A stretch of 34,819 nt of DNA from Candidatus Tenebribacter burtonii (GTDB lineage: Bacteria; Cloacimonadota; Cloacimonadia; Cloacimonadales; TCS61): positions 1-34,819 of the forward strand of contig JAVCCF010000131.1 in the NCBI GenBank assembly GCA_030765625.1, written 5' to 3'. Positions 25,248 through 30,534 of this stretch are shown piece by piece; within the stretch, counting starts at the first letter, position 1, and each line of letters starts with the position of its first letter. Position numbers and translations under genes: made by a program. The notes below the pieces were generated by a model that saw nothing but the letters and a program-made list of their open reading frames with translations, searched no databases and had not been told where the DNA came from.

Positions 25248-25964
25248 TCACACTATCTCTATCTTTATTCGTTTATTTATACGGCCTTTGCTTTTGTAAC
25301 CTACAATTTTAATCGTACCAATCTCGGAAGTATTTTTTACATGAGTTCCACCATCAGCTTGCAAATCTAGATCACCGATCTTTACGATTCTTATTTCTGT
25401 TAAGTTGGGAGGAAGTAAATTTATCTTTGTTCGTATCAGGTCGGGAATTTTCTCCGCTTCTATTCGTGGTAACGTTTCGGAAGTTACATCCAGACCTCTG
25501 TGGATCTCAGCATTAACTTTATCTTCAATTTCAGAGGTCATTTCAGCATTCAGTTTCTCAAATTCAAAATCCAGTCTGCCAGCCAGAGGCTCTATATTAC
25601 CGCCCGTAACCTTAGCATGATAATCACGCCACACAACTGCACTGATTGAATGCATGGAGGTGTGTGTCCGCATCAACTTGTAACGTCTTTCCCAATCAAT
25701 TTTACCTAAAATCTTAGTTCCGGCATCAGGAAGATCACCTTCCAGGAAATGCAATATCTTGCCGTCGATCTTTTTCACTTTGATTACATTTGATGCCTTT
25801 CCCTTAAACTCAATCTCACCAAGATCACAGGGTTGACCCCCGCCGGTAGGATAGAAAGCTGTTTGATCCAGTACAATTGCATTTTCTTCCACGAAAACTT
25901 CGATCACATCTGCCGTAAATTCTTTTAGATAACTATCTTCTAAATATAATAATTCAGTCATTGC
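25248..25964 (-). CDS. Alanyl-tRNA editing protein (AlaX-type)
   Basis: DQTAFYPTGGGQPCDLG; MRTHTSMHSISAV (HxxxH); DLDLQADGGTHVKNTSEIG. MTELLYLED start preferred. Confidence 0.88.
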   Translation of the reverse strand, partial: AMTELLYLEDSYLKEFTADVIEVFVEENAIVLDQTAFYPTGGGQPCDLGEIEFKGKASNVIKVKKIDGKILHFLEGDLPDAGTKILGKIDWERRYKLMRTHTSMHSISAVVWRDYHAKVTGGNIEPLAGRLDFEFEKLNAEMTSEIEDKVNAEIHRGLDVTSETLPRIEAEKIPDLIRTKINLLPPNLTEIRIVKIGDLDLQADGGTHVKNTSEIGTIKIVGYKSKGRINKRIKIEIV

Positions 25965-26183
25965 CACTCCCATCGATTCCAATCTCTCAATCAAGAAAAT
26001 AGTTATAGTTCGAATTGTCAACAGAGAACCAACTGCTAACTTTATTTATTCATTAACCATCAATTTATTTGATAGCGTATAGTAATTAATTATTTGACAC
26101 ATAATTAGTTAACTCCAATCTTACCGCTGTAAACTTTAATTTTATAATTTTTGCACCTTTTTGGAATATCGAATGGAGTAATA

Positions 26184-27056: not shown

Positions 27057-28772
27057 ATGAATGAATTAGTACCCCTTATAGCAAGCCTAGCTACAAGAAA
27101 TAGGAATTATGTTCTTTTCGCTGGCGCAGGCTTATCAAAAGATGCTGGAGTAAAAAGTGGCTGGGATATTTTGATTGAGACATTAATACCTTTGTATATT
27201 GCTGAAAAGGAAATAGATGAATTACCTGCAAATCATTCTAAAGATATCGAAGAATGGTATCTACAACATGAATCTTTTAGTAAGTTAGGATATTCAGAAA
27301 TATTAGAACTTATGCATAGAGGTGAAATAGAAAGACGAGATTATTTAGAAAAATTCTTCAAAGATGAAACACCAGGTGAAGCACATAAACAAATAGCACA
27401 AATGGTTTCTAATGGATTGATTAGATTTATCTTTACTACGAATTTCGATAATCTTATAGAAAAAGCATTAGATGAGATAAACATAGATTATGACGTCATT
27501 TTTTCAGATGATATTCTGGAAAAAACAAAATCTTGGGATAAGGTTAAAACATGTCGCATATATAAATTACATGGTGATTATAAAACTGGTAAAATCCGAA
27601 ATACAGTAAAAGAGTTAGAAACTCTCGATCGAAAGATCTCAGACGATTTTCAGTATATTATTGATAGACATGGTATAGTTGTAATTGGATATGCTGGTAG
27701 AGATAAAGCGATTATGGATCATTTTATGATTCGGAAACCTTATGCTTATCCATTTTATTGGCAGTATCGTACGTTTCCATTAGTTTCTGATGAATACAAA
27801 TTGTTTTATAAACTGAAAGATAAATATGAAAAAGACAATGAAACACCAATTATTTATTTAGAAAATTCGAGTGTTTCAGATTTACTGTCGATAATAAATT
27901 CAGGAATACAAAATTTAGAAATTTCATTAATTTCAACAAAATCAGATTCAAAAAGATACAGAGATTTCATAGTTAATAATGATCAAAAGAAAATCAGAGC
28001 TTTATCACTTGAGTTGATTAAAGATTTTCAAGATTCATACATAGATTGTGATGAAAAAAGAAAGAAAAATTCAAATTATTTGTACCAATTCGATATTATG
28101 AAATCTTTCTTTGAGAATCAATCTAAAACGCTTTCTTATTTGAAGGAATTATTAGAATTTGAGCAATATGTTGAAATTGACTATTTTTGTGAAAAGATAC
28201 ATAATATAATTCTTGATTTCTATCCAGAAAGGTATGGCTTTTACTATAGTTCAATCTTGTATTACTTTTTAATGACTTTCGGTGCTTTATTATTAGAATA
28301 TAATTATATTCAAAAATATATTGAGAAGATATTTTCCTATTATTACAAAAATCGTGATTATGATTTCAAATCTATCAAAATAATTCCAGGATTATCTCTT
28401 ATTGAATCAGGATGGAAAGAGATAGAACAAGAATTATACAAGAAAAACTATTTCAATCCCAAAGTATCAATTATTGAAAAACACTTATTACCAACCGTTG
28501 TAACATCTAAATCATTCATGATATTTGATGCTTACATAACAATAAAATGGTTATTGAGTGATGATCAATCAAGATCTTGGGCAAGTGGAGCTGCCATGTT
28601 TAACGATTATATAATAAAGGCTTTTGTCACATATTTTGAGAAAGATTGTACAGAAGAAAAAATGAAGTATTTAATAGAAAGGATTAATGAGAAATATAAA
28701 GATTACAGATCCAGGACAGTTATAGGATTAAACGAATTGAGTTGTTATCTAGGTGAAAAGTATAAAATATAA
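27057..28772 (+). CDS. SIR2-like domain protein (candidate anti-phage NADase)
   Basis: VLFAGAGLSKDAG, FTTNFDNLIEKAL, YKLHGDY, GIVVIGYAGRD motifs; unannotated ~280-aa C-terminal region. Confidence 0.85.
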   Translation: MNELVPLIASLATRNRNYVLFAGAGLSKDAGVKSGWDILIETLIPLYIAEKEIDELPANHSKDIEEWYLQHESFSKLGYSEILELMHRGEIERRDYLEKFFKDETPGEAHKQIAQMVSNGLIRFIFTTNFDNLIEKALDEINIDYDVIFSDDILEKTKSWDKVKTCRIYKLHGDYKTGKIRNTVKELETLDRKISDDFQYIIDRHGIVVIGYAGRDKAIMDHFMIRKPYAYPFYWQYRTFPLVSDEYKLFYKLKDKYEKDNETPIIYLENSSVSDLLSIINSGIQNLEISLISTKSDSKRYRDFIVNNDQKKIRALSLELIKDFQDSYIDCDEKRKKNSNYLYQFDIMKSFFENQSKTLSYLKELLEFEQYVEIDYFCEKIHNIILDFYPERYGFYYSSILYYFLMTFGALLLEYNYIQKYIEKIFSYYYKNRDYDFKSIKIIPGLSLIESGWKEIEQELYKKNYFNPKVSIIEKHLLPTVVTSKSFMIFDAYITIKWLLSDDQSRSWASGAAMFNDYIIKAFVTYFEKDCTEEKMKYLIERINEKYKDYRSRTVIGLNELSCYLGEKYKI

Positions 28773-29066: not shown

Positions 29067-29534
29067 ATGAAAAAGTTTGATCTTATTATTCTTATAATTC
29101 TACTTTTCCCTCTCTTATTAACAGCTATAGATCTTGGTGCTAAACTTGAATTATCTGGTGGACCTATCTTTTCTGCAATGCTTGGTTTCCCAATAAATGA
29201 GAAACTGGATCTTGATATTTCAGCCGGAGGATTCCCCGAAGTAATTTTCCGGTCAGATGCAAATCTAAAATTTAAAAAAGAGAGAAAGTGGTTTCCTTTT
29301 TATCTTGCAGGGGTTGGTGTTATGAGTTTTTTCCGTGGTAATGCCGATGGAGATACCATTGTTACTTTCCAGGCAAATGCAGCCATTCGAACTTTTCAAT
29401 TATCAGTCATCAAAATCTCACCATACATCGGAATTCTCTATGTGCCAAAATGGATAAACAAAGATTTTGATGATGATCTTACTGACTTGGCTGTTGTACC
29501 AATGCTTGGTGTGGAGATGATGTTAGGAAGATAA
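29067..29534 (+). CDS. Hypothetical exported protein, beta-barrel-like
   Basis: Signal peptide MKKFDLIILIILLFPLLLTA; start at internal ATG (29067) after RBS gggagc. Confidence 0.55.
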   Translation: MKKFDLIILIILLFPLLLTAIDLGAKLELSGGPIFSAMLGFPINEKLDLDISAGGFPEVIFRSDANLKFKKERKWFPFYLAGVGVMSFFRGNADGDTIVTFQANAAIRTFQLSVIKISPYIGILYVPKWINKDFDDDLTDLAVVPMLGVEMMLGR

Positions 29535-29537
29535 CTT

Positions 29538-29573
29538 TCTCCCCCTCTTGATTTAAGAGGGGGTCAGGGGGAG
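29538..29573 (+). repeat. Palindromic repeat copy 1 flanking the DUF559 gene
   Basis: TCTCCCCCTCTTGATTTAAGAGGGGGTCAGGGGGAG; inner stem CCCCCTCTT/AAGAGGGGG. Confidence 0.85.
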
Positions 29574-29584
29574 TTTTACAAATT

Positions 29585-29959
29585 ATGAAAATTTATAACA
29601 GAAAAATACAAATGGATAGAAGAATAGAACTCCGAAAGAATGCTACTCCAGCAGAAAAGACTCTTTGGAATATACTTAGAAAGCGAAATATTAATAACAT
29701 AAAGTTCTACCGTCAATATGGGATCGGAGTTTATATCGCAGATTTTTACGCACCATCAATCAGGTTGTGCATCGAAGTAGATGGTAAACAACATCATAGT
29801 AGAATGGTAATTGAATACGATGCAATTCGTGATAATTATATGAAATCTTTAAATATCACAGTACTTCGTTTTGATAATGAGTTAGTTATTGAAGATATGA
29901 ATAATGTAGTGGAAAAAGTTAAAGAAGCCACAGAATCATTAATCCAAATAAATAATTAA
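29585..29959 (+). CDS. DUF559 (Vsr-like endonuclease fold) protein
   Basis: RRIELRKNATPAEKTLWNILRKRNINNIKFYRQYGIGVYIADFYAPSIRLCIEVDGKQHH. Confidence 0.92.
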   Translation: MKIYNRKIQMDRRIELRKNATPAEKTLWNILRKRNINNIKFYRQYGIGVYIADFYAPSIRLCIEVDGKQHHSRMVIEYDAIRDNYMKSLNITVLRFDNELVIEDMNNVVEKVKEATESLIQINN

Positions 29960-29980
29960 TCAATAAAACCCCATCCCTGC

Positions 29981-30005
29981 CCTTCCCCTTTAACAAAGAG
30001 GAAGG
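29981..30005. repeat. Hairpin between the DUF559 stop and repeat copy 2
   Basis: CCTTCCCCTTT-aac-AAAGAGGAAGG, one mismatch. Confidence 0.7.
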
Positions 30006-30033
30006 CTTTTAAGAAATCTCGAGAAGGGAATCA

Positions 30034-30069
30034 TTTCCCCCTCTTGATTCAAGAGGGGGTCAAGGGGAA
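30034..30069 (+). repeat. Palindromic repeat copy 2 flanking the DUF559 gene
   Basis: TTTCCCCCTCTTGATTCAAGAGGGGGTCAAGGGGAA; 32/36 identical to 29538..29573, same orientation. Confidence 0.85.
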
Positions 30070-30216
30070 TTCAATAATTCAGAAATGACAACAGTCCGTC
30101 ACTCTGCCTGCCAAGCTATAGTTTATAACGAAGGTTGGAGGAGTCTTCTTGCTGAACTATTAATGAAGAGTTAGGGTATTTTGATGTAGGATTATTAATG
30201 TTGAATGATAAACTCT

Positions 30217-30251: not shown

Positions 30252-30534
30252 GGCTACATCCTTCCTTAAAAGAACATCGTGAATGAATCGTCATGATGAC
30301 GAGGAAGAACTTTGGAAGATTTACTAATGTAAATCCTTAAATCGTTCATGCTTTAATGTCACACTGAGCCCTTCGACAAGCTCAGGACAGGCTCTGTCAA
30401 AGTGTGGAGGAATTCTCCGTAAGTAATCTTGAGTGAGAACTTCATCCTTCGATAAACTCAGGATGACAAGAGTGGAACCCGAGGGTTAATTTGAAAGGAC
30501 ACTACATCTTTCGATAATTTAAGGATTACAAAAT

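Follow-up and report, generated by a model that had tools for sequence, protein, structure and literature searches.

A DUF559 gene between predicted intrastrand-triplex repeats: a probable compact, REPtron-like mobile element

The repeats called BoxC, PIT or TM (Maher 2000, as cited in Holder 2015, PMC4666352) were already known in the 1990s, are present in hundreds of genomes and have been tied to genome instability (PMC4666352). Formation of a triplex in solution has been demonstrated for TMECO oligonucleotides, PIT/TM elements are reported to block polymerase in vitro, and in E. coli rearrangements are more frequent at TM loci (PMC4666352). Mobility genes near TM repeats were never found by the 2015 study, and no mover gene is known for them (PMC4666352). 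Members of the DUF559 protein family have been described in other contexts. VsrA of Caulobacter, a DUF559 protein, has been read as a mismatch-repair nuclease and affects DNA damage (PMC12907096), a DUF559 gene has been assigned to the EDxHD family (PMC9403480), and ycjD of E. coli appears in the literature either for its predicted PD-(D/E)XK product or for taking the place of eef (PMC12817139). No paper linking DUF559 to repeats was found in the literature outside subscription journals.

The stretch of DNA analysed here (the window) comprises 34,819 nucleotides of Candidatus Tenebribacter burtonii and carries a unit of about 530 bp that is probably a copy of a widespread, compact REPtron-like element, in which one DUF559 gene lies between repeats with the architecture of the intrastrand-triplex motif (ITM).

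The DUF559 gene of the window and its repeats

The gene (29585-29959, plus strand) encodes 124 amino acids, and its assignment to DUF559 in the initial annotation was confirmed by a profile search (PF04480, E 2.3e-29, 102 bits against a curated cut-off of 20.6). Residues invariant in an alignment of 38 sequences include E24, D53, E64, D66, H70 and D79. With an AF2 model of DUF559 (pLDDT 91), the best Foldseek matches in the PDB are 3hrl (NGO0050, E 8.5e-7) and 3r3p, the catalytic domain of I-Bth0305I (E 1.1e-4), followed by a weaker match to Vsr (E 0.05). The modelled protein thus fits the PD-(D/E)XK / Vsr-like / EDxHD-type nuclease fold, as expected of a putative nuclease. DUF559 is the only gene of the unit, which lacks an HUH Y1 tyrosine transposase gene. 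A role as a defence gene was considered and dropped, as PADLOC yields weak partial matches at most. Upstream of the unit lie a SIR2-like domain protein (27057-28772) and a lone alanyl-tRNA synthetase/editing-domain fragment (25248-26021). A second, unrelated repeat of dispersed type (30360-30400, CACTGAGCCCTTCGACAAGCTCAGGACAGG) lies in the intergenic stretch that separates the unit from SpoU.

A repeat search of the window recovered a 49-nt direct repeat in the same orientation (29527-29575 and 30023-30071, 82% identical), bearing out the earlier proposal that direct copies bracket the gene; the score of this upstream/downstream pair, 28.5, exceeds the 99th percentile (18.3) of windows with the same geometry at the same loci. 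The first copy ends 9-10 nt before the DUF559 start codon and the second starts about 75 nt after the stop. Within each copy lies a plus-strand motif, ITM A. In copy 1 (29541-29575; 9/9 triads with T allowed opposite A) a C-rich arm Y, CCCCCTCTT (29541-29549), is followed by the loop GATTT, the purine arm R, AAGAGGGGG (29555-29563), the spacer TCA and a tag RH, GGGGGAGTT (29567-29575). The second G-block of the repeat therefore mirrors the purine arm of the hairpin, in the order Y-R-RH. Copy 2 (30038-30071; 7 triads) has the same order, with Y CCCCTCTTG, loop ATT, R CAAGAGGGG, spacer GTCAA and RH GGGGAATT. The third hairpin noted earlier between the gene and copy 2 is real and extends to 29966-30005, where it forms part of a minus-strand motif, ITM B (11/11 triads), which reads on that strand as Y ccttcctcttt, loop gtt, R AAAGGGGAAGG, spacer gcag and RH GGATGGGGTTT. 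The ITMs of the unit thus run plus, minus, plus. ITM B and ITM A copy 2 make up an inverted dimer with its tags outward (REPIN/BIME-like) downstream of the gene, and the upstream copy has no inverted partner in the window, although this partner is retained in orthologues of the genus. These are the only three ITMs reported by the detector in the whole 34.8-kb window.

The exact hairpin CCCCCTCTT..AAGAGGGGG has no further occurrence, and no exact solo copy, in the 2.8-Mb genome. A dispersed family built on this exact sequence, of which the genome holds just two copies, is ruled out. Conservation lies in the Y-R-RH architecture and not in the particular hairpin sequence on which the initial annotation focused, and 213 ITMs carry 79 distinct R arms. 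This order is that of the intrastrand-triplex motif known as BoxC/PIT/TM, and the repeats of the window are predicted to fold accordingly. ITMs were detected on both strands at a threshold of at least 7 triads with T allowed opposite A, and since these thresholds were chosen after examples had been seen, the same detector was applied in every control. When hairpins were picked without a third-block criterion, the match to the mirror of their own R arm was 0.644, compared to a maximum of 0.607 in 200 permutations. The tag base is G in 439 of 448 positions opposite G in the R arm, and opposite A it is T in 112, A in 67 and another base in 15, which is the code that a purine-motif triplex would require. 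The tags are G-rich mirrors and the GTAG tag at the hairpin foot is absent. Of 57 pairs of adjacent ITMs, 42 are inverted dimers with the tags facing outward, and the repeats fall into three spacer classes (about 3 nt, about 7 nt, and at least 10 nt, often with another hairpin). A tag-first pattern (RH-R-loop-Y, the other triplex order) is found in 11-31 copies in the Cloacimonadota genomes G003, G008, G011 and G013, in which DUF559 was not found; these repeats are a different family.

Association of the repeats with DUF559 genes

The association was assessed at 129 non-redundant small DUF559 genes from 8 lineages, drawn from Cloacimonadota, Bacteroidota, Planctomycetota and named or other genomes. 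An ITM lies within 350/300 bp of 105 of these genes, on both sides in 54, and about a fifth of the genes have none at the detector threshold. ITM density reaches 3.39/kb at 0-250 bp from the gene and is mostly 0.07-0.25/kb further out. Within Cloacimonadota it is 2.69/kb at DUF559 against a background of 0.034/kb at the same loci. In a direct-repeat test run before the triplex logic was recognised, 72 DUF559 genes of Cloacimonadota had complete flanks, and 31 of them exceeded the 99th percentile of windows from the same locus. Hairpins rich in C and G are common as terminators, and the motifs might be chance hairpins or terminators next to an unrelated gene. However, ITMs are about zero in dinucleotide-shuffled flanks scanned with the same detector, rare in the same-locus background, and found at none of 30 ParE-toxin loci and none of 30 Y1-transposase loci of the same phylum. 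The mirrored third G-block is moreover foreign to terminators, and the probability left to this explanation is negligible. The association of ITMs with DUF559 is almost certainly real.

The association is also specific and cognate. On the DUF559 protein tree the long spacer class clusters with 15 changes, against 29.3 after shuffling (0/500 shuffles as low), a strength that is approximate because the tree rests on about 100 columns and includes near relatives. A comparison over 13 genomes shows solo ITMs to be closer to the DUF559-associated ITMs of the same genome than to those of the other genomes (p 0.0056). Such solo copies are the bulk of the motifs sampled, 71 of 77 lying more than 3 kb from any DUF559 gene. 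Among 123 Cloacimonadota genomes, those with DUF559 average 4.8 copies of the broad ITM pattern and those without it 0.46 (Spearman 0.55). The p-values of these genome-level tests are optimistic, since the genomes are related and incomplete. Y1-transposase counts correlate with ITM counts too (rho 0.47). In partial correlations DUF559 has a rho of 0.41 and Y1 one of 0.27, and the genome-level correlation with DUF559 is partly confounded by general mobile-element load. A RAYT/Y1 transposase as the mover was nevertheless rejected on the absence of ITMs from the Y1 loci. At two loci, L043 (G114:C81) and L244 (G100:C121), DUF559 and repeat alternate in tandem (DUF559-repeat-DUF559-repeat), one of them with nearly identical repeats of about 270 bp.

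In E. coli the DUF559 gene ycjD lies between sapF and fabI, and a query of ycjD with its flanks was covered to at least 80% in 3362 of 5426 complete genomes. The repeat that follows the gene matches the published TMECO/BoxC consensus CCCTCNCCCN3-6GGGNGAGGGN3GGGNGAGGG (PMC4666352). The sapF-fabI interval was rejected as a clean empty site, as strains without ycjD have the eef efflux operon there (PMC12817139), which makes the difference a replacement. K-12 has a solo BoxC dimer between hrpB and mrcB that AGR4587 lacks; in an O111 strain (L336) part of the dimer is gone, a deletion between two ITMs having left one hairpin without its tag.

Deletions of this kind, together with the more frequent rearrangement of TM loci in E. 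coli (PMC4666352) and the correlation of ITM counts with Y1 transposases, would also be expected if the ITMs were recombination-prone sequences moved by another agent or by replication slippage, with DUF559 as trapped cargo. However, other small genes of the same genomes (ParE, Y1) are not bracketed, the ITM class follows the DUF559 tree, the same family recurs across all 8 lineages, and no other enzyme is recurrent at the repeats among the loci read. DUF559 as a mere passenger is therefore improbable, albeit the least so of the alternatives considered here.

Occupied and empty sites

In the genus of the window, the SpoU locus carries DUF559 and repeats in four genomes and neither in three congeners or in the loci examined from other genera, and in Sinorhizobium sp. 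C101 a dimer-DUF559-dimer arrangement separates two genes that are direct neighbours in Shinella; both pairs are presence/absence differences, for which insertion and loss are both possible. Orthologues of the window unit keep the neighbours on the SpoU side or on the ORF162/ORF741 side, so the unit has been inherited with rearranged outer neighbours in the genus. It appears to be vertically inherited, and transposition within the genus was rejected. In the hpa operon of Deinococcus, a DUF559 gene with ITM ends lies between hpaB and the oxidoreductase gene in D. proteolyticus and between the oxidoreductase gene and hpaE in strain NW-56, and the operons of D. deserti and D. ficus lack both gene and repeat. 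The Deinococcus units end in minus/plus ITMs. Outside the ITM ends of the D. proteolyticus unit (L330, about 882-1350) there is a 15-bp inverted repeat, GGGCCAGCGTTGCTG / CAGCAACGCTGGCCC, which gives the impression of a palindrome enclosing the unit. Near searches on the Azospirillum, Sphingomonas and Pseudanabaena loci yielded no empty sites. Neither a target-site duplication nor an exact junction was found in these comparisons, in which the gene-bearing pairs share about 80% identity at most or match at the protein level, too distant for a junction to be defined.

DUF559 is also found inside other genes, in frame and together with translated repeats, in LeuRS, MetRS, MetH, HsdR, HsdM and AroC (chorismate synthase), and likewise in an M23 peptidase gene. 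The translated repeats of these units read PPSPxxGE / SPLGEGxGG. In leuS, two genomes have 184 and 228 residues with DUF559 where parsed relatives have a link of 25-50 residues. One DUF559 clade, with the leader TADPxLYxxLKEF or near it, occurs twice in MetH and also in MetRS and M23, which implies that new, unrelated sites have been reached.

Gene and repeats are thus present or absent together, they occupy unrelated sites including gene interiors, and solo dimers are polymorphic. The DUF559 gene with its repeats is very probably a mobile unit. The initial annotation had proposed a small RAYT-like or homing-like unit of this kind; the enrichment of repeats at DUF559 genes, their solo copies and the occupied and empty sites at SpoU, Sinorhizobium/Shinella, Deinococcus and leuS uphold that proposal, while its other part, mobilisation by DUF559, is something we infer.

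Two other roles for DUF559 were weighed. As a free-standing homing gene, it would copy itself into cognate repeat-bearing sites and reach no new ones. The closest characterised enzyme in the fold search, I-Bth0305I, would fit such allelic homing, leuS and metH are each occupied at the same place in more than one lineage, and direct copies on both sides are compatible with insertion into a pre-existing repeat. However, the empty leuS, Deinococcus and SpoU sites have no repeat at a threshold of at least 7 triads, and a single clade is found in the genes for MetH, MetRS and M23. Homing confined to allelic sites is accordingly an unlikely account. Alternatively, DUF559 might be a structure-specific or mismatch nuclease that is retained next to triplex-forming repeats to relieve the replication block or mutation risk they pose and that does not move them, as could be suggested by the Vsr-like fold, the effect of Caulobacter VsrA on DNA damage (PMC12907096) and the polymerase block by PIT/TM elements in vitro (reported in PMC4666352). 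A housekeeping gene, however, need not travel as a discrete insert or sit inside LeuRS, MetRS and MetH, and most ITM copies lie away from DUF559 genes, leaving this repair function marginally less credible than strict homing.

Proposed mechanism and comparison with known systems

The reading we favour is that DUF559 is the mobility enzyme of the unit, a putative catalytic role that we consider likely, though with less assurance than the mobility of the unit itself. The element would consist of a DUF559 nuclease gene flanked by ITMs, usually as inverted dimers with tags outward, each repeat comprising a C-rich arm Y, its complement R, a short spacer and a G-rich tag RH that mirrors R. The DUF559 protein may recognise its cognate ITM folded in single-stranded or extruded DNA and, in the manner of Vsr or a homing endonuclease, cut or nick at the tag boundary. 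Through repair or copying, a new site would then receive either the gene with its flanking repeats or just a repeat dimer, and solo dimers could be spread in trans in the way that RAYTs disperse REPs. There is an even chance that DUF559 proteins in general are structure-specific mobility enzymes that recognise intrastrand-triplex DNA and are the founders of bacterial BoxC/PIT-type repeats, with an enzyme unrelated to RAYTs and with in-frame insertion into essential genes possible. This would link the BoxC/PIT/TM repeats, which have lacked a mover gene, to DUF559, a large family of unknown function, and suggests that a nuclease of Vsr/homing type drives a REP-like element able to enter aminoacyl-tRNA synthetases in frame. 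In laboratory E. coli, ycjD with its BoxC repeat offers a testable pair.

Like the REP/RAYT system (REPtron), the unit has one enzyme gene with palindromic, tagged repeats on either side that are also dispersed solo and as inverted dimers (BIME/REPIN-like). However, its enzyme is a PD-(D/E)XK-type DUF559 protein where that of RAYT is an HUH Y1 transposase, and its tag mirrors the hairpin arm and is rich in G where that of REP is GTAG. DUF559 units would work like REP/RAYT, but fall outside RAYT on both enzyme and tag. CGTC-tagged REPs (PMC3733652) are likewise dispersed palindromes that form dimers, some of them in genes, reportedly without a dedicated transposase, but their tag differs from that of the ITMs. 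With the free-standing homing genes of the I-Bth0305I / EDxHD / Vsr-like group (PMC3943268), DUF559 shares the fold, the probable active site and the character of a small selfish nuclease gene. DUF559 units differ from these in lacking an intron or intein, in being flanked by repeats that spread solo and in occupying many unrelated sites; DUF559 is probably a homing-like enzyme, yet one apparently not confined to allelic sites. The BoxC/PIT/TM repeats (PMC4666352) have the same Y-R-RH purine-motif triplex architecture as those described here. The study of those repeats came upon no gene for mobility in their vicinity, whereas DUF559 accompanies the repeats here, and variants that lie far from the E. 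coli consensus still share the architecture.
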